Source: Isosphaeraceae bacterium EP7
GTDB taxonomy: Bacteria; Planctomycetota; Planctomycetia; Isosphaerales; Isosphaeraceae
Assembly: GCA_038400315.1 (NCBI GenBank)
Contig: CP151667.1
Location: forward strand, 434,001-498,000
Length of the DNA: 64,000 nucleotides
Reading direction: 5' to 3'
The notes beneath the pieces are model-generated. The model had not been told where the DNA came from. It saw only the letters and a list, made by a program, of their open reading frames with translations, and did no database searches. Below are positions 120-8,164 of the stretch, one piece after another; position 1 is the stretch's first letter, and the number at the start of each line of letters is the position of its first letter. The translations under genes and the position numbers were made by a program.

Positions 120-1193
120 ATGGCAGAAGCGACGGTCCCCTACGGACGAAAGACGCAACGAGCGTCTGCCGTCAAGGAAGTTCACATTCTCTGGATCACG
201 GCCGGTCTCGGCTGCGATGGCGACTCGGTCTCGATCACGGCGGCCACCCAGCCCAGCATCGAGGATGTCCTGCTCGGCGCCATTCCGGGGCTCCCCAAGG
301 TCCACCTTCATAATCCCGTGCTCGCCTTCGAAAATGGCGATGAGTTTATGAGCTACTGGTATCGGGCCGACGAGGGCCGGCTCGAGCCATTTGTGCTGGT
401 CGTCGAAGGGTCGATCCCCAATGAGAAGATCAAGGAGGAAGGGTATTGGGCCGCGCTCGGTACGGACAAGAAGACCGGGCAGCCGATCACGACCTGTGAG
501 TGGATCGACCGTCTCTCCCCCAAGGCCACGGCCGTCGTGGCGATCGGCACCTGCGCGACCTACGGCGGCATCCATGCGATGGAGGGGAACCCCACCGGCT
601 GCATGGGCCTGCCCGACTACCTCGGCTGGCACTGGAAATCCAAGGCGGGCCTGCCGATCGTCTGCGTGCCGGGCTGTCCCGTTCAGCCCGACAACTTCAT
701 GGAGACGCTCCTGTACTTGCTTTACCAGCTGGCGGGTCTCGCGCCGATGATCCCGCTGGACGACTGCCTCCGGCCCACCTGGCTCTTCGGCAAGACCGTG
801 CACGATGGTTGCGACCGCGCGGGGTACTACGAAGAGGCCAATTTCGCGACCGAGTACGGGTCTCCGAAGTGCCTGGTCAAGCTCGGCTGCTGGGGGCCGG
901 TGGTCAACTGCAACGTTCCCAAGCGAGGCTGGATGGCTGGCATCGGGGGCTGTCCCAACGTCGGTGGGATCTGCATCGGCTGTACGATGCCGGGGTTCCC
1001 CGACAAGTTCATGCCGTTCATGGACGAGCCGCCAGGCGCACGACTGTCATCGACCGCGATCGGGTTGTACGGCCGGATCATCCGAAAACTCCGCCACTGG
1101 ACCATGGACACGGCCAACAAGGAGCCCAAGTGGCGTCACAATCGTCCCGAGTTGACCACCGGATACCGCCCTCAAACACCCGTCAGGTCATAA
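120..1193 (+). CDS. hhyS: [NiFe] hydrogenase small subunit, group 1h-like
   Basis: Electron-transfer subunit of an uptake [NiFe] hydrogenase, carrying the Fe-S clusters that take electrons from the active site in the large subunit. The protein has 357 residues. The usual N-terminal CxxC proximal-cluster motif is replaced by GCDGDS (residues 31-36), a single Cys followed by two Asp. This recalls group 1h enzymes, whose proximal cluster has three Cys and one Asp ligand. More Cys motifs follow: GTCATYGG, PGCPV, KLGCWGP, NCNVP and GGCPNVGGICIGCTMPGFP. No twin-arginine signal or C-terminal anchor is visible, so a cytoplasmic enzyme is inferred. AGAGGAG lies 7 nt upstream of the ATG. The large subunit follows after 12 nt. 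Assignment as a hydrogenase small subunit is firm; the 1h subgroup rests on the Asp motif and the operon neighbours. Confidence 0.93.
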   Translation: MAEATVPYGRKTQRASAVKEVHILWITAGLGCDGDSVSITAATQPSIEDVLLGAIPGLPKVHLHNPVLAFENGDEFMSYWYRADEGRLEPFVLVVEGSIPNEKIKEEGYWAALGTDKKTGQPITTCEWIDRLSPKATAVVAIGTCATYGGIHAMEGNPTGCMGLPDYLGWHWKSKAGLPIVCVPGCPVQPDNFMETLLYLLYQLAGLAPMIPLDDCLRPTWLFGKTVHDGCDRAGYYEEANFATEYGSPKCLVKLGCWGPVVNCNVPKRGWMAGIGGCPNVGGICIGCTMPGFPDKFMPFMDEPPGARLSSTAIGLYGRIIRKLRHWTMDTANKEPKWRHNRPELTTGYRPQTPVRS

Positions 1194-1205: not shown

Positions 1206-3011
1206 ATGGCCATCGATGTCACCCCCGAGAAAGACGTTCGCGCCTCGGCCGGCAACCTGGTCGAGATGTCCTGGGATCCGATCACCCGGATCGTGGGGAG
1301 CCTGGGGATCTACACGAAGATTGATTTCGCGGCCCGCAGGGTCGCCGAATGCTATAGCACCTCGTCGATCTTCCGGGGCTACAGCATCTTCATGAAGGGC
1401 AAAGACCCCCGCGACGCCCACTTCATCACGAGCCGGATCTGCGGGATTTGCGGGGATAATCACGCAACCTGCGCGTGTTACGCTCAGAACATGGCCTTCG
1501 GCATCCGCCCGCCCAACATCGCCGAATGCATCGTTAACCTCGGCGAAGCGGCCGAGTACATGTTTGACCATAACCTGTACCAGGACAACCTGGTCGGCGT
1601 CGACTTCTGCGAAAAGATGGTCAAGGAGACCAACCCTGGCGTTCTCAACCTGGCCGAGCGGACCGAGTCGCCCCACGCTGAACTGCACGGCTACAAGACG
1701 ATTGCCGACATCATGCGCGCCCTCAACCCGTTCACCGGCACATTCTACCTGGAAACCCTCCAGATGAGCCGGATGACCCGCGAGATGTTCTGCCTGATGG
1801 AAGGGCGGCACGTTCACCCCTCGACACTCTACCCTGGAGGCGTTGGCACAGTCCCCACGGTCCAACTCTTCACGGACTACCTCGTTCGGCTGATGAAGTA
1901 CGTCGAATTCATGAAGAAGGTCGTGCCGCTCCATGACGACCTGTTCGACTTCTTTTACGAGGCCCTGCCGGGCTACGAGGAAGTGGGTCGACGGCGGATC
2001 TTGCTCGGTTGTTGGGGCTCGTATCAGAACCCTGACGTCTGCGATTATACGTACAAGAACATGACCGAGTGGGGCCGAGCGATGTATGTCACGCCGGGGA
2101 TCGTGGTCGACGGCGAGCTCGTCACGACCGACCTGGTCAAGATCAACCTCGGTATCCGGATCTTGTTGGGGAGTTCTTACTACGACGACTGGCAAGAAAA
2201 CGGCGAGATCTTCGTCAAGCACGACCCGCTCGGCAACCCGGTCGACCCCCGTCATCCCTGGAACCAGACGACGCTGCCGAGGCCGCAGAAGCGCGACTTC
2301 AAAGACAAGTATACGTGGGTCATGTCGCCCCGCTGGTACGATGAACGGACCAAGGACTACCTCGCTCTCGATACTGGCGGCGGCCCGATTGCCCGGCTCT
2401 GGGCGACTGCGCTGGCAGGGATCGTTGACATCGGCTACATCAAATCCACCGGCCGAAGCGTCAAGATCTATCTTCCCAAGACCGCCTCGAAGCCCGAAGT
2501 CGAGTTTGAGTGGAAGATCCCCGAGTGGAGCAACGCCCTCGAACGCGACCGGGCGCGCACCTATTTCCAGGCCTATTCCGCGGCGGCGGCGCTTCACTTT
2601 GTCGAGCAAGCCCTCAAGGAACTTCATGCCGGCCGGACCAAGACTTGGACCGAGTTCAAGGTTCCCGACGAGGCGATCGGCTGCGGATTCCACGAGGCGG
2701 TGCGAGGCGTCCTCTCGCACCACGTCGTGATCCGCGGCGGTAAAATCGCGAACTACCACCCCTACCCTCCGACCCCCTGGAACGCCAATCCTCGCGACTG
2801 CTACGGGACACCTGGCCCTTATGAAGACGCGGTGCAGAACACCCCGATCTTCGAGGAGAACGGGCCCGATAAGTTCAAGGGGATCGACATCATGAGGGCG
2901 GTCCGCAGCTTCGATCCGTGCTTGCCTTGCGGCGTTCATATGTTCCTGGGGAACGGCAAGACTCTTGAGGTCCGCCACTCCCCTATGTTCGGCTCTCAAC
3001 GCCCGGAGTAA
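1206..3011 (+). CDS. hhyL: [NiFe] hydrogenase large subunit, group 1h-like
   Basis: Catalytic subunit that oxidises H2 at the NiFe(CN)2CO centre. The two ligand motifs are intact: RICGICGDNH at residues 77-86 (Cys79, Cys82) and DPCLPCGVH at 570-578 (Cys572, Cys575). A 23-residue tail follows His578, where a maturation protease would be expected to cut after nickel insertion; the candidate protease is encoded at 6237. At 601 residues it matches the family. AAGGAGAG sits just before the ATG, and the next gene starts 7 nt after the stop. The DPCLPCGVHM form of the C-terminal motif is one I associate with group 1h. No frameshift or missing ligand was seen. Confidence 0.95.
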   Translation: MAIDVTPEKDVRASAGNLVEMSWDPITRIVGSLGIYTKIDFAARRVAECYSTSSIFRGYSIFMKGKDPRDAHFITSRICGICGDNHATCACYAQNMAFGIRPPNIAECIVNLGEAAEYMFDHNLYQDNLVGVDFCEKMVKETNPGVLNLAERTESPHAELHGYKTIADIMRALNPFTGTFYLETLQMSRMTREMFCLMEGRHVHPSTLYPGGVGTVPTVQLFTDYLVRLMKYVEFMKKVVPLHDDLFDFFYEALPGYEEVGRRRILLGCWGSYQNPDVCDYTYKNMTEWGRAMYVTPGIVVDGELVTTDLVKINLGIRILLGSSYYDDWQENGEIFVKHDPLGNPVDPRHPWNQTTLPRPQKRDFKDKYTWVMSPRWYDERTKDYLALDTGGGPIARLWATALAGIVDIGYIKSTGRSVKIYLPKTASKPEVEFEWKIPEWSNALERDRARTYFQAYSAAAALHFVEQALKELHAGRTKTWTEFKVPDEAIGCGFHEAVRGVLSHHVVIRGGKIANYHPYPPTPWNANPRDCYGTPGPYEDAVQNTPIFEENGPDKFKGIDIMRAVRSFDPCLPCGVHMFLGNGKTLEVRHSPMFGSQRPE

Positions 3012-3018
3012 CCACCGG

Positions 3019-3588
3019 ATGAACGCCACCGACACCGACTTCCGCGGCCGGATCGGTCGGATTGAAACGCTGATCGAAGAGATCGAGCGCTTCGCCGACC
3101 CGTCCGCGCAGGCACAGGCCCGTGAGATCGTCCAGGCACTGCTCGAATTCCACGGTGCCGCCTTGGCGGCCCTGATCGGCCACGTCACCAGAGTTGGCTC
3201 CCCCGGCCTCGCGATCATGGAAGCGATCGCGCGTGACGACCTGACCTCCAACCTCCTCCTGCTTCACGATCTCCACCCTCACGACCTCGGTGCGCGGGTC
3301 GCACAGGCCCTCGACCGCGTCCGCCCCCAACTCGCCACGCACGGTGGTGACGTCGAGCTGCTGGGTATCGATGACGGAGTCGTCCGGCTCAGGCTGAAGG
3401 GAAGCTGTCAAGGCTGCCCCTCCTCGGCCGCAACACTGAGGCAAACCATCGAGAGGGCCATTCTCGACGCGGCTCCCGACGTCGCGGCCATCGAGCTCGA
3501 GGGGCCCGCCGAACCCTCCCACTTGGCCTCGCTCCCGATCGTGACGATTGGGGCTCCATCACCGATCCGGATCGGAGGGGATCGATGA
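3019..3588 (+). CDS. Nfu/NifU C-terminal-domain protein of the hydrogenase operon
   Basis: A 189-residue protein with a helical N-terminal half (about 1-85) and an Nfu-type domain (about 90-165) that ends in SCQGCPSSAATL. Cys130 and Cys133 form the CxxC that binds a transient Fe-S cluster in Nfu proteins. The family donates clusters to apo-proteins, so a role in loading clusters into the small subunit is a reasonable inference. The ATG at 3019 is preferred over upstream in-frame starts because those lie inside the large-subunit gene. Its TGA overlaps the next ATG by 4 nt (ATGA). The N-terminal half has no motif I recognise. Confidence 0.8.
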   Translation: MNATDTDFRGRIGRIETLIEEIERFADPSAQAQAREIVQALLEFHGAALAALIGHVTRVGSPGLAIMEAIARDDLTSNLLLLHDLHPHDLGARVAQALDRVRPQLATHGGDVELLGIDDGVVRLRLKGSCQGCPSSAATLRQTIERAILDAAPDVAAIELEGPAEPSHLASLPIVTIGAPSPIRIGGDR

Positions 3589-4232
3589 TGCCGTCGACGG
3601 AACAACGCCCCTGGAGCGTCCTCCGCCAGTTCGTTCGCCCTCGTCCCCCGGCCGAGCGATGCGAACTCTGCGGGGCTTCGATCGCTCCGGAGCATTCACA
3701 CCTCCTGGAGCCATCGACACGACAGCTTCATTGCGCGTGCACGGCCTGCTCGATCTGCCTCAGTGGCCTGCAAGATGCCCGCTATCAGCGCGTCCCTCCA
3801 CGCGCCGATTCGCTCGACGATTTCCGAATGAGCGAGGAGATCTGGGAAGATTTTCATCTCCCGATCAACCTCGCGTTCTTCCTCCATAATTCTGCCGCCG
3901 GCCGCGTGCAAGCCTATTTCCCGAGCCCGGCCGGGGCCACCGAATCGCTCCTGACCCTGGAAAGCTGGGACCGGCTCGTCTCGGAAAACCTCGTTCTCCG
4001 CACTCTCCAACCAGACGTCGAAGCCCTGCTCGTCAACCGTCTGAACGGGTCAAATGCGACGTATCTCGTCTCGGTCGACGAGTGCTACAAGCTTGTCGGC
4101 TTGATCCGAGCGTACTGGCACGGCTTCTCGGGGGGCGCGGCCGTCTGGGGGCAGATTGTCGCATACTTCGAAGGGCTCGAGGCGCGGTCTAGACCGTCGG
4201 GAGGGACCCCCCATGCCCGAGTTGAACTTTGA
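3585..4232 (+). CDS. Cys-rich hydrogenase-operon protein, DUF5947-like
   Basis: A 215-residue protein with a metal-site signature near its N-terminus: CELC (Cys26, Cys29), HSH (His37, His39) and HCACTACSIC (Cys50, Cys52, Cys55, Cys58). Six Cys and several His would suit a zinc ribbon or an Fe-S cluster. The remainder looks globular, with WEDFHLPINLAFF and a Trp-rich C-terminal part. It resembles the DUF5947 family, which I associate with group 1h hydrogenase operons; its function is unknown. ATG 3585 overlaps the preceding stop, and a second ATG at 3588 is equally possible. GGAGGGG lies just upstream. Its 3' end overlaps the next gene by 20 nt, which suggests translational coupling. Confidence 0.72.
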   Translation: MMPSTEQRPWSVLRQFVRPRPPAERCELCGASIAPEHSHLLEPSTRQLHCACTACSICLSGLQDARYQRVPPRADSLDDFRMSEEIWEDFHLPINLAFFLHNSAAGRVQAYFPSPAGATESLLTLESWDRLVSENLVLRTLQPDVEALLVNRLNGSNATYLVSVDECYKLVGLIRAYWHGFSGGAAVWGQIVAYFEGLEARSRPSGGTPHARVEL

Positions 4233-4872
4233 GGTCGAGCGGGCCGAGCCTGTCCCGCACGCAGCGTCTCCGCTCCTCTACCTCAAGCTGAAAATCACCG
4301 ATGTCGCGGGTCTCGAGGCCTTGCCGATCCCGGCCGTTGCGCTCCGGTGTCAGATCCGGATCGAGCCGACTCGCAGGAAATACGTCGTGTCCGAACAACA
4401 GCGGCTCCTCGACCTCTTCGGCGAGCCCGCACGCTGGGGCCAGACGCTCAGGAGCATGCTCTGGACCCACACAAGCCTGATTGTGCCGCCGTTCACCACT
4501 CAGACGGTCGTCGATCTACCGGTTCCCTGTACGTATGATTTCAACCTCGCAGCAACCAAGTATTTTTATGCCCTGGAGGATGGTGACGTTCCCCTCTGCC
4601 TGCTCTTCAGCGGGACCATTTTCTCCGCGGAGGAGGAGGACGGCCCGCTCCAGGCGACCCCGATCTCGTGGGAAAAGGAGGCCGATTTCCGGCTCCCGGT
4701 TCAGGCCTGGAAGGCGATGATGGATCACTATTATCCCAACATCGCCTGGCTCTGCCTGCGTCAGGACGTGTTCGACCAGCTCTATCTCTTCAAGAGCCGG
4801 CTCGGTCTGTCGTCGTGGGAACAGGCATTGGAGCGACTTCTGGACGCCAGCCGAGAGCAGGTGGAACCGTGA
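4213..4872 (+). CDS. Hydrogenase-operon protein, DUF6084-like
   Basis: A 219-residue protein without Cys-rich motifs, signal peptide or membrane segment. Visible landmarks are PELNFEVERAEP at the N-terminus, LRCQIRIEP, LLDLFGEPARWGQTLR and WLCLRQDVFDQLYLFKSR near the C-terminus. These resemble DUF6084, another uncharacterised family that I associate with group 1h clusters. The ATG at 4213 was chosen because GAGGGAC lies directly upstream and the similarity begins there; earlier in-frame starts fall within the preceding gene. The TGA overlaps the following GTG (GTGA). A role in assembly or electron transfer is inference from position only. Confidence 0.7.
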   Translation: MPELNFEVERAEPVPHAASPLLYLKLKITDVAGLEALPIPAVALRCQIRIEPTRRKYVVSEQQRLLDLFGEPARWGQTLRSMLWTHTSLIVPPFTTQTVVDLPVPCTYDFNLAATKYFYALEDGDVPLCLLFSGTIFSAEEEDGPLQATPISWEKEADFRLPVQAWKAMMDHYYPNIAWLCLRQDVFDQLYLFKSRLGLSSWEQALERLLDASREQVEP

Positions 4873-5945
4873 ATCGACACATGGTGGACCGGCTCGTCAA
4901 CGCCCTCCTTTATGAAGGCTATCTGCTCTATCCCTATCGACCCTCGGTGAAGAACCGCCAGCGCTGGTCGTTCGGAGGTCTGTATCCGCCATCGTGCACC
5001 GCCGGCCGCATTGGATCCGATACCAGCGCAATGCAGGCGCAATACCTCGCGACGGGCGGCCCTGAAACGATCCTGACAGTCTCGGTCAGGTTTCTGCATG
5101 TCGTCTTACGTCGTGTCGGTCAGCTTGAACGACCACAGGTCGAATGGCCCGGCGACGGGTCGATCCCTGTCCGTTTCGTCGAGTCGCTCGCGGTCGGTGA
5201 TACAGTCATTCACTCCTGGCAGGAGGCAGTCGAACGGGAGATCCCGCTCGATGACGTGGCCATGAGCGAGCTCGTCGCCAGCCCTTGCCGAGTCGAATTC
5301 GGCTTCGGCCCCGGGACGGAACGCGAACCGATCCGCGAGCCTTCAGGGGCGATTCTTGGGCTCTTCGAGCGTCAGCTCCGCCGAATTGAAGGGGTCGTCG
5401 ACCTCTCGGCTGAGCGTGTTCGCGAAGGCGTCTATCAGATCACGGCCCGAGTCGAGAATCGGACGCCGCTCGTGACCGTCACGCCCGATAATCGCGACGA
5501 GGTGCTCCTGCATGCTCTGTCCTCGACGCACATCATTCTCGGCACCGAAAATGGATCGTTGATCTCTTTACTCGATCCGCCGGAGCCACTTCGCGAGCTT
5601 GCGGCCGGCTGTCAGAACGTCGGAACCTGGCCCGTGCTGGTCGGGGCCGAGGGTGAGACCGACACGATGTTGTCATCGCCGATCATTCTTTACGACTATC
5701 CGCAGATCGCGCCGGAGAGTCCTGGCGACCTGTTTGATTCGACCGAGATCGACGAGATCCTCACGCTCAGGATCATGACTCTGAGCGACGAGGAGAAGCG
5801 TTCGATGGTCGCGCTCGACGAACGCGGCGGAGCCATCCTGGCTCGCGCTGAATCGATGGTGCGTGGAGAGCTGATGAGCCTGCACGGCACCTTCCGGGAA
5901 CGACGACCGGCCTCGGGAGGGCCAGAACATGGATCTCTGGGGTGA
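4869..5945 (+). CDS. Conserved hypothetical protein of the hydrogenase operon (358 aa)
   Basis: I do not recognise a named family. The protein opens with DRLVNALLYEGYLLYPYRPS and then RQRWSFGGLYP, continues as a mixed alpha/beta protein, and ends in a charged Arg/Glu-rich tail. There is no Cys motif, signal peptide or membrane span. The start is either GTG 4869, which overlaps the preceding stop as GTGA, or ATG 4881 four codons later; coupling favours GTG. The 3' end overlaps the next gene by 17 nt. It sits between the DUF6084-like gene and the protease cassette and is surely co-transcribed, so it probably serves hydrogenase assembly or partner binding, but nothing in the sequence shows how. 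Confidence 0.68.
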   Translation: MNRHMVDRLVNALLYEGYLLYPYRPSVKNRQRWSFGGLYPPSCTAGRIGSDTSAMQAQYLATGGPETILTVSVRFLHVVLRRVGQLERPQVEWPGDGSIPVRFVESLAVGDTVIHSWQEAVEREIPLDDVAMSELVASPCRVEFGFGPGTEREPIREPSGAILGLFERQLRRIEGVVDLSAERVREGVYQITARVENRTPLVTVTPDNRDEVLLHALSSTHIILGTENGSLISLLDPPEPLRELAAGCQNVGTWPVLVGAEGETDTMLSSPIILYDYPQIAPESPGDLFDSTEIDEILTLRIMTLSDEEKRSMVALDERGGAILARAESMVRGELMSLHGTFRERRPASGGPEHGSLG

Positions 5946-6240
5946 ACTCGAAGGGCCTCCGCTTCAGAGCGTCCACGTCGTCGGGGCCGAGCTTCGCGTC
6001 GGCGACCCCGTCCGCCTTCGGCCGCTCGGCGACACCGATATCATGGACATCGCCCTCAAGGGCAAATCTGCCGTCATCGCCTCGATCGAGCAGGATTACG
6101 AAAATAGAATCCACATTGCCGTGATTGTCGATGACGATCCCGGCCGCGATCTCGGCCTGTCAGGGAAGCCCGGTCACCGCTTCTTCTTCCGGCCGGAAGA
6201 GGTCGAGCCGATCATGGACGAACGAGGGGAGGCATCATGA
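5929..6240 (+). CDS. Small conserved hydrogenase-operon protein (103 aa)
   Basis: A 103-residue, probably beta-rich protein with GDPVRLRPLGDTDIMDIAL, SIEQDYENRIHIAVIVDDDPG and a PGHRFFFRPEEVEP end. It starts 17 nt inside the preceding gene and its TGA overlaps the protease ATG (ATGA), so translation of all three is probably coupled. It has no Cys, signal peptide or membrane segment. Size and beta content might suggest a small chaperone-like fold in the manner of HypC, but the HypC N-terminal MC motif is absent, so I do not call it HypC. Adjacency to the protease suggests a maturation role, which is inference. Confidence 0.68.
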   Translation: MDLWGELEGPPLQSVHVVGAELRVGDPVRLRPLGDTDIMDIALKGKSAVIASIEQDYENRIHIAVIVDDDPGRDLGLSGKPGHRFFFRPEEVEPIMDERGEAS

Positions 6241-6752
6241 CTCCTCGACTCCTCATCGCCTGCATCGGCAACATCTTCCTGGGAGACGACGCGTTCGGGT
6301 GCGAAGTGGCGCGTCGCCTGTCGGTGCGTTCACGGCCGGAAGGGGTCCGCCTGGTCGATTTCGGGATTCGCGGGTTTGACCTGGCCCTCGCCTTGCTTGA
6401 TGAGGCCGTCGACGTCGCGATCCTGGTCGACGCCGTCCCTCGCGGCGAGCCGCCCGGCACTCTCTATCTCATCGAGCCCGATTGGGAAGCGGGGGCCGAC
6501 GTCAACGAGCCGACACCCTTCGAGACGCACTCTCTCGATCCTGTCAAGGTCCTCCGCCTCGTGCTCACACTTGGTGGACGTTCCAAGCGTGTCCTCCTGG
6601 TTGGCTGCGAGCCGACTCCGTTCGACGAAGATAACGATCCGCCTGCCGATTTGAGCTCGCCCGTTCAGGAGGCTCTCGATGAGGCCGTGCGGATGGTCGA
6701 GTCACTCGTCGTTCAGATTCGCGAGGGTCGAGAAGTCATTGCCATGCAGTAA
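6237..6752 (+). CDS. Hydrogenase maturation protease (HupD/HybD family)
   Basis: Endopeptidase that removes the C-terminal tail of the [NiFe] large subunit once nickel is in place. The 171-residue protein carries the family opening CIGNIFLGDDAFG (residues 9-21), VDAVPRG (64-70) and THSL (97-100). Asp18, Asp65 and His98 line up with the nickel-sensing ligands Glu16, Asp62 and His93 of E. coli HybD, with Asp in place of the first Glu. The ATG overlaps the preceding stop. The likely substrate is the 23-residue tail after His578 of the large subunit encoded at 1206. A 36-nt gap separates it from the next small gene. Confidence 0.88.
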   Translation: MTPRLLIACIGNIFLGDDAFGCEVARRLSVRSRPEGVRLVDFGIRGFDLALALLDEAVDVAILVDAVPRGEPPGTLYLIEPDWEAGADVNEPTPFETHSLDPVKVLRLVLTLGGRSKRVLLVGCEPTPFDEDNDPPADLSSPVQEALDEAVRMVESLVVQIREGREVIAMQ

Positions 6753-6788
6753 TCCACGGCTAGTCGTTTCGATGGAGGAGCATTCATC

Positions 6789-6923
6789 ATGCGAATTATT
6801 CAAGACATTGCCGAATTCCTGGCCGGAGTCGTCATTGCACTGGTGACGTTGCTGATCCTGGCCGTGGGCGCGCTATTCGCATTCGGATCGATGGGAAAAT
6901 ACATCAGAAATAAATCGATGTAG
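6789..6923 (+). CDS. 44-residue single-span membrane protein in hydrogenase operon
   Basis: A short gene encoding 44 residues. It has an amphipathic start (MRIIQDIAEF), one hydrophobic segment at about residues 11-33, and a basic end, GKYIRNKSM. GGAGGAG at 6774-6780 lies 8 nt before the ATG, one of the best ribosome-binding sites in the operon, and the next gene, hypA, begins 9 nt after the stop. The C-terminal pattern, an aromatic/basic run ending in SM, recalls the small DUF6893-type proteins that I associate with actinobacterial hydrogenase operons, from memory. It could tether or localise the otherwise soluble hydrogenase at the membrane. That role is inference. Confidence 0.66.
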   Translation: MRIIQDIAEFLAGVVIALVTLLILAVGALFAFGSMGKYIRNKSM

Positions 6924-6932
6924 GGTGAGTCT

Positions 6933-7262
6933 ATGCACGAGCTGGCAATCGCGCAAGAGATCGTCGCGATCGTGTCCGATTGCGCCGCCGGCGCGCGGGT
7001 CACACGCGTGGTCCTGGAAGTCGGCAAGCTTGCGGCGGTCTTGCCCGATGCGGTCCAGTTCTGCTTCGAGCTCTGCGTCGAGGGAACTTCGCTGGAAGGG
7101 GCGAGCTTGGTCATCATCGAGACGCCCGGGCTGGCACGCTGTCGCGAATGCGGGGGGAATGTCCCACTCGTCCGCCCGTTTGGACGTTGCGAATGCGGCG
7201 GCACCGACCTGGAGTGGCTCTCCGGCGAACAACTGAAAATCAAGGAATTCGAGGTGGTTTAA
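6933..7262 (+). CDS. hypA: Hydrogenase nickel incorporation protein HypA
   Basis: Nickel metallochaperone that works with HypB to insert Ni into the large subunit. The 109-residue protein begins MHELAIAQEI, with His2 in the conserved nickel-binding MHE motif. The zinc site is CRECGG (Cys70, Cys73) and CECGG (Cys86, Cys88). The second half is CxC rather than the usual CxxC, so the loop geometry may differ from enterobacterial HypA. The stop codon shares a base with the hypB ATG (TAATG), a classic coupling arrangement. GGGTGAG lies just upstream of the start. Confidence 0.92.
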   Translation: MHELAIAQEIVAIVSDCAAGARVTRVVLEVGKLAAVLPDAVQFCFELCVEGTSLEGASLVIIETPGLARCRECGGNVPLVRPFGRCECGGTDLEWLSGEQLKIKEFEVV

Positions 7263-8164
7263 TGTGTACAACATGCGGGTGCTCCGATCATTCACGGCCC
7301 AGGCTCACCGACCTTGAGACCGGACTGATCATCCCCCTCGACGATCACGATGAACACTCCCATGCATTTGATCATGGCCATGATCATCATGGTGACGGTC
7401 ACGACCATTCGCATCACCACAGCCATCAAACGACCAAGATTTCCCTGGAAACGGCCGTTCTCGCCAAGAACGACCGCCTGGCCGAGCGAAACCGGAACTG
7501 GCTTGCCGGTCGCGACATCCTTGCACTCAACCTGGTCAGCTCGCCCGGGGCGGGAAAGACCAGCTTGCTCGAACGGACCATCAGCGACCTCGCAGGCGTT
7601 CTTCCGCTCTCGGTGATCGAAGGTGATCAGGAAACCCTGAATGACGCCGAGCGAATCCGCGCGACCGGGTGCCGGGTCGTTCAGATCAACACCGGCACCG
7701 GCTGCCATCTCGACGCCGGGATGCTTGCACGGAGTCTTGATCAGCTCAATCCGCCGCCAGGCTCGGTTGTCCTGATCGAAAACGTCGGCAATCTCGTCTG
7801 CCCAGCCCTCTTCGATCTCGGCGAGCACGCCAAGGTGGTGATTGTCTCCGTCACCGAGGGCGACGATAAGCCTCTCAAGTATCCTCACATGTTCCGAGCC
7901 GGCTCGGTCGTCATCCTCAACAAGATCGATCTGCTCCCCTACGTGCTGTTCGACGAATCCCGGTTCCTCGACCACGTCCGCCAGGTCAACCCTGCTCTCC
8001 GCGTTCTGCGTCTCTCCGCGATCCGAGGCGACGGCCTATCTGAGTGGTATCGATGGCTCTGCACACAGTCGACGGAGCGTTCTCGACCGAACTCCGCGGT
8101 TCCTCAACATGAGGAGGAGACGGAGAGTTCGAAGAGCCGACCGACTCCAGTCCGGCCAGCGTAG
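7262..8164 (+). CDS. hypB: Hydrogenase nickel incorporation GTPase HypB
   Basis: GTPase that drives nickel delivery to the hydrogenase large subunit. The 300-residue protein has the N-terminal high-affinity nickel motif CTTCGC (Cys2, Cys5, Cys7), a His-rich nickel-storage stretch at about 29-55, a P-loop SSPGAGKT (93-100), and the GTPase motifs EGDQET, ENVGN and NKIDLLP. Both nickel-binding regions are present, so it may store as well as insert nickel. The last 30 residues after the GTPase core are polar, with several Ser, Arg and Pro, and look disordered. It is the last gene of the operon; no hyp gene follows in the window. Confidence 0.95.
   Translation: MCTTCGCSDHSRPRLTDLETGLIIPLDDHDEHSHAFDHGHDHHGDGHDHSHHHSHQTTKISLETAVLAKNDRLAERNRNWLAGRDILALNLVSSPGAGKTSLLERTISDLAGVLPLSVIEGDQETLNDAERIRATGCRVVQINTGTGCHLDAGMLARSLDQLNPPPGSVVLIENVGNLVCPALFDLGEHAKVVIVSVTEGDDKPLKYPHMFRAGSVVILNKIDLLPYVLFDESRFLDHVRQVNPALRVLRLSAIRGDGLSEWYRWLCTQSTERSRPNSAVPQHEEETESSKSRPTPVRPA

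Follow-up and report, generated by a model that had tools for sequence, protein, structure and literature searches.

We identified a 44-residue peptide encoded between the maturation protease gene and hypA of a group 1h [NiFe]-hydrogenase operon, and we are nearly certain that it is the product of a real, unannotated gene that occurs in association with group 1h hydrogenases. We consider it probable that this microprotein, with its single helix, tethers the enzyme to the membrane or serves as its docking subunit, a role that we infer from the evidence laid out below. Group 1h hydrogenases allow soil bacteria to live on atmospheric hydrogen, and they are credited with a large share of the global atmospheric H2 sink. 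A conserved, mostly unannotated microprotein that recurs across phyla makes the question of how these enzymes are anchored experimentally testable, and the finding extends beyond a single odd open reading frame (ORF) to nearly the whole enzyme group. If the tether reading is correct, it would give a function to a Pfam domain of unknown function (DUF), and it could account for a possible failure of the structural subunits, on their own, to behave like the native enzyme.

A small gene between the protease gene and hypA

The window, the whole 64,000-nucleotide stretch of DNA that we analysed, belongs to a 7.2-Mb planctomycete genome whose relatives include Singulisphaera. We assigned its hydrogenase operon to group 1h by its structural subunits, which are of the HofG/HofK (5AA5) type (Table 1). 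Public plasmid annotation misnames the group 1h small subunit as 'hydrogenase expression protein HypE' in four other loci (L149, L150, L151, and L152).

Table 1. Features of the hydrogenase operon in the window (SSU, small subunit; LSU, large subunit).
Feature	Position	Strand	Evidence and remarks
Group 1h [NiFe]-hydrogenase SSU	120..1193	+	relative of HofK, PDB 5AA5, 674 bits; tail PELTTGY
Group 1h [NiFe]-hydrogenase LSU	1206..3011	+	best PDB match 5AA5 HofG, 1163 bits
NifU-like protein, HhyE-type candidate redox partner	2965..3588	+	contains CQGCPSSAATLRQTIE; homologs annotated NifU family; frame as listed, true start probably further in
DUF5947 protein	3585..4232	+	E 6e-65
DUF6084 protein (frame as listed)	4156..4872	+	homologs annotated DUF6084
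Hypothetical operon protein (frame as listed)	4668..5945	+	true start probably near 4870 by homology
Small accessory protein	5929..6240	+	in some relatives fused to preceding gene
Hydrogenase maturation protease (hupD), HupD/HycI type	6237..6752	+	HycI 2e-14; TIGR00072
Shine-Dalgarno-like GGAGGAG	6774..6780	+	sequence; 8-nt spacer to microprotein ATG
44-aa single-helix membrane microprotein, DUF6893-like	6789..6923	+	homologs, pN/pS, family profile, AlphaFold2, profile comparison
Conserved C-terminal tail KYIRNKSM	6897..6920	+	family form RYh[KR]hRxM-stop
HypA	6933..7262	+	7e-29
HypB (start approximate)	7262..8164	+	TIGR00073, 2e-77

An earlier note on this DNA had described a 44-residue frame at this place, with a GGAGGAG site and a 9-nt gap before hypA, and its coordinates agree with ours. 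The ORF starts at an ATG (6789), ends at a TAG (6921-6923) with its stop 9 nt from the hypA ATG, and encodes MRIIQDIAEFLAGVVIALVTLLILAVGALFAFGSMGKYIRNKSM. Its size is uninformative, because short ORFs are common in the window (we counted 132 ORFs of 40 aa or longer overlapping its first 16 kb) and a 44-codon ORF alone is not unusual. Of 74 related ORFs, 71 likewise have a Shine-Dalgarno-like site ahead of a plausible start. AlphaFold2 predicts a single helix for the window microprotein (residues 2-43, mean pLDDT 87), and the tail that ends it, GSMGKYIRNKSM, is basic, in keeping with the one hydrophobic span and basic tail noted previously.

Homologs occupy the same operon place in two Singulisphaera-type genomes of the window's family, with 65% identity (E 3e-11) in G026 and 56% identity (E 1e-9) in G009. 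Comparison of the three genes revealed an excess of synonymous changes, with pN/pS of 0.31-0.59 (one-sided Fisher tests, 6e-5, 0.002, and 0.04), and sets of microproteins from Burkholderiales and Acidobacteriota gave a pN/pS of 0.25. By eye, in unaligned sequence, the DNA just upstream of the microprotein start had no evident similarity between the window and its relatives. The frame is thus conserved in related operons and evolves under purifying selection rather than drifting at the synonymous rate, two outcomes on which the earlier note had made the gene depend. A family profile built without the window ORF and its two nearest relatives ranked this ORF first of 1256 six-frame ORFs in the window, with a weak E-value of 0.028. 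The expectation that gene callers would easily miss such a gene also held: matching ORFs are not listed in the PLSDB gene tables, themselves incomplete, for Cupriavidus necator pHG1, Methylocystis parvus, Mycobacterium intracellulare, and Kitasatospora plasmids.

Family membership and association with group 1h hydrogenases

In the DNA that follows the protease gene in other operons, we nearly always found a relative of the peptide, a short ORF that encodes a single hydrophobic segment and ends in the pattern PDhxRYh[KR]hRxM, with the stop immediately after. Across a 49-member alignment, a Tyr at position -7 is present in all 49 sequences, and every sequence has the final Met, which is the last residue in 48. 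The window tail keeps both the Tyr and the Met, with R changed to K and RIR to RNK. Operon copies from Kitasatospora, Streptomyces, Dictyobacter, and Paraburkholderia match PF21833 (DUF6893), a Pfam family of unknown function, at 37-49 bits (E 6e-13 to 4e-9), and relatives in Actinomycetota, Chloroflexota, and Pseudomonadota score above its curated cut-off of 24.6 bits. The window microprotein gave no match to PF21833 at E-values up to 10 and so stays below the Pfam cut-off; a profile comparison with the family by hhalign gave 93.8% and an E-value of 1.7e-7, with the alignment reaching the C-terminus. It resembles DUF6893 proteins in its single helix, in a length range of 32-45 aa, in the C-terminal PDhxRYh[KR]hRxM-stop segment, and in its position after the protease gene of a group 1h operon, and differs in being too divergent for the Pfam model. 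Judging from the profile comparison, the motif, the position, and the weak rank in the leave-out profile search, we call it a divergent DUF6893-like protein. The link of DUF6893 to hydrogenase appears to be unrecorded in the open-licence literature, where we found no mention of DUF6893 or of the peptide; an earlier mention elsewhere is possible.

The family varies in length. Acidobacteriota loci such as L080, L083, and L094 encode a long form of 65-80 aa, with approximately 25-30 residues inserted between the helix and the C-terminal motif, and one acidobacterial operon (L100:16823-17327) encodes two copies in tandem, one short and one long with a helix-tail insert.

We gathered approximately 105 loci via the large subunit, counted operons duplicated across two collections once, and took as our census the 84 operons with a protease gene and enough sequence. 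The microprotein was found in the locus in 74 of these 84 hupD-bearing operons, directly after hupD in 69, and elsewhere in the genome in four more cases, all acidobacterial. One copy (L105), missed by a Tyr-based pattern, was confirmed by the family profile. The microprotein was not found for six of the 84 operons, all planctomycete, which belong to a single large-subunit clade (support 100). Since this clade is mostly without the gene, the microprotein is dispensable or replaced there. Motif and hydropathy scans of the operons without the ORF detected no alternative anchor or C-terminal fusion.

The same association was seen at the level of whole genomes. Among 200 Streptomycetaceae genomes, 107 had both the large subunit and DUF6893, none had DUF6893 only, 24 had the large subunit only, and 69 had neither (Fisher test, 2e-33, uncorrected for shared ancestry). 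Our loose first filter missed true copies, as in L212, and counts of absence are therefore upper bounds. We inspected 12 of the 24 Streptomycetaceae genomes with the large subunit only: eight (L215-L218 and L220-L223) encode a divergent form that ends in EIPGLIREIRIWRM or a similar sequence and carries a short extension, two (L212 and L219) encode ordinary copies overlooked by the first filter, and for two (L213 and L214) no microprotein was found. The corresponding counts for 397 planctomycete-class genomes were 15 with both, one with the microprotein only, eight with the large subunit only, and 373 with neither (Fisher test, 1e-20, again uncorrected for shared ancestry). The pattern repeats in Planctomycetota, Acidobacteriota, Pseudomonadota, Chloroflexota, Verrucomicrobiota, and Actinomycetota.

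The microprotein tracks the structural subunits of the hydrogenase, not its maturation genes, as the exceptional placements reveal. In two Verrucomicrobia genomes that bear pMMO (2.2 and 2.5 Mb), and that are very probably of Methylacidiphilum type, an ORF ending in IPSFPGFVRYLRIRQM precedes the small-subunit gene, on the same strand, by approximately 80 nt, and hupD, DUF6084, and the large accessory gene lie on the opposite strand; genes for the NifU-like protein and DUF5947 were not detected near the locus. Other copies lie in the gap between the large subunit and the NifU-like gene (L212), flanked by accessory genes (L051), ahead of hupD (L146), or on the upstream side of the small subunit (L090).

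A putative membrane tether and the alternatives

Previous work describes an enzyme whose membrane partner is missing from the picture. Hyd-1h of Methylacidiphilum fumariolicum SolV has no transmembrane helix and no signal peptide, is membrane-associated via an unknown partner, and has lower affinity once isolated (PMC7174314). In the hydrogenase operons of Mycobacterium smegmatis, no cytochrome b-type membrane subunit was found, and the NifU-like HhyE is required (PMC6883350). Membrane association of group 1h enzymes is reported to be essential for high affinity, and no anchor for it is known (PMC7174314, PMC6883350).

The observations are most simply explained by a docking subunit that has one helix and a conserved tail in the cytoplasm. 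We propose that (i) the helix of the microprotein would insert into the cytoplasmic membrane; (ii) its short basic C-terminal segment (RYh[KR]hRxM-COOH) would be kept on the cytoplasmic side; (iii) this segment would bind the soluble heterodimer, or the NifU-like partner; and (iv) the enzyme, which has no signal peptide or transmembrane helix of its own, would thereby be docked at the membrane with its electrons able to reach the quinone pool. The microprotein would play a structural part and would not be redox-active. By the positive-inside rule, the C-terminus would be predicted to face the cytoplasm, where an enzyme lacking a signal peptide is located, because the C-terminal tail is more basic than the N-terminal flank (family mean net charge +3.3 for the last ten residues versus +0.7). 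What we observed is a gene conserved under purifying selection, with a conserved C-terminus and linked to the structural genes across phyla; its topology, its contact with the enzyme, its docking role, and any influence on H2 affinity are what we infer. Taken as circumstantial evidence, the association across phyla, the linkage to the structural genes, the transmembrane segment with its basic tail, and the literature argue strongly for the tether half of the earlier note's proposal, which had the peptide as either a membrane tether or a quinone-side link. We are evenly divided on the broader proposal that DUF6893-type microproteins in general are the membrane subunit that has been overlooked in group 1h hydrogenases, made of a helix and a docking motif and needed for high-affinity oxidation of atmospheric H2.

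Several observations count against a tether, namely the planctomycete clade that is mostly without the gene, a planctomycete genome that has a related ORF and no hydrogenase (G031, see below), and the enzyme of C. necator H16, which was isolated from the cytoplasm and has low affinity (as reported in PMC7174314). C. necator H16 carries the microprotein gene on pHG1, unannotated in the table that we used, and the purified preparation may have lost the peptide. No PDB chain matches the peptide, and entry 5AA5 was matched only through HofK and HofG. A possible docking site is the LTTGY tail of the small subunit (window 1140-1190), which is near-universal where the microprotein occurs. This tail is lost in most of the microprotein-less planctomycete operons (L058, L060, and L062-L064). 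We regard the covariation as a lead only, because the tail-less operons form one clade and two cases deviate: L057 keeps the tail and has no ORF, and L133 has lost the tail in a genome with a weak candidate ORF.

The main competing explanation is that the microprotein is a maturation or assembly factor outside the final complex, a membrane helper that recruits the protease or HypA/HypB or stabilises the heterodimer. The ORF most often follows hupD immediately and, in the window, immediately precedes hypA, as such a factor might. However, it stays with the structural genes in the Methylacidiphilum-like genomes, where hupD is on the other strand, and its place is unchanged in Burkholderiaceae, where hypA is approximately 6 kb off. 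A general hydrogenase maturation protein looks unlikely, since none of the 69 group-1h-negative Streptomycetaceae genomes has the ORF. We judge this explanation unlikely overall, though it deserves more weight than the others. Single-helix microproteins of such size commonly act as regulatory or stabilising subunits, and our peptide might tune activity or turnover in the manner of CydX or KdpF, with something else as the anchor; that one enzyme clade does without the gene would suit this role. On the other side, conservation is highest in the soluble C-terminus and not along a helix face, and we noticed no other conserved membrane protein in the operons examined (hydropathy was scanned in a few loci), so that we think a purely regulatory subunit rather improbable.

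The quinone-side half of the earlier proposal, a direct electron link from hydrogenase to quinone, was not supported. A membrane location is plausible for such a link, but neither Cys (8 of 49 family members) nor His (9 of 49) is conserved, which makes a heme or Fe-S cofactor unlikely, and we rejected a redox or quinone carrier for lack of conserved ligands. We give this reading almost no credence; at most, the microprotein would help to place the enzyme near quinone. Just as implausible would be a non-functional short frame, a leader peptide, a chance ORF, or true kinship with TrbC pilins. Short ORFs are common, and residues 3-36 do match the TrbC/VirB2 pilin family (PF04956) with an E-value of 6e-4. 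The match covers mainly the hydrophobic segment, however, and its 20.4 bits fall below the cut-off of 27.9. We rejected a chance ORF on conservation and selection; amino-acid conservation in at least six phyla, a pN/pS of about 0.25-0.6, and the varying operon position of the ORF argue against this set of readings.

Known systems and related ORFs elsewhere

A microprotein tether would share its task with other membrane links. Cytochrome b anchors of group 1 hydrogenases (HoxZ/HyaC type) likewise anchor a [NiFe] hydrogenase to the membrane, but these are heme proteins with several transmembrane helices and His ligands, whereas the microprotein has one helix, no conserved His, and no heme ligands, and is not a member of that class. 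HucM, from the group 2a hydrogenase Huc, is reportedly an operon-encoded, non-catalytic protein that links a high-affinity hydrogenase to the membrane, as we propose here; it is said to be larger and to oligomerise into a stalk, and the microprotein is not a member of its family. CydX-type microproteins of respiratory complexes are similar in size and one-helix architecture and serve a different partner enzyme; we know of no homology between them and the microprotein.

Two DUF6893-like ORFs lie away from hydrogenase genes. One (L197:7385-7768) is directly upstream of alternative complex III-like genes in G031, which has neither a group 1h large subunit nor HypD; its neighbours, named from sequence only, are a multiheme cytochrome and subunits of molybdopterin and NrfD type. 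This ORF could be a relict, or it could be re-used beside another quinone enzyme. The other (L198:7333-7473) is an orphan in G202, beside a formate/nitrite-transporter-like gene and with no hydrogenase genes around; the same genome encodes two group 1h large subunits, only one of which has its own microprotein copy.
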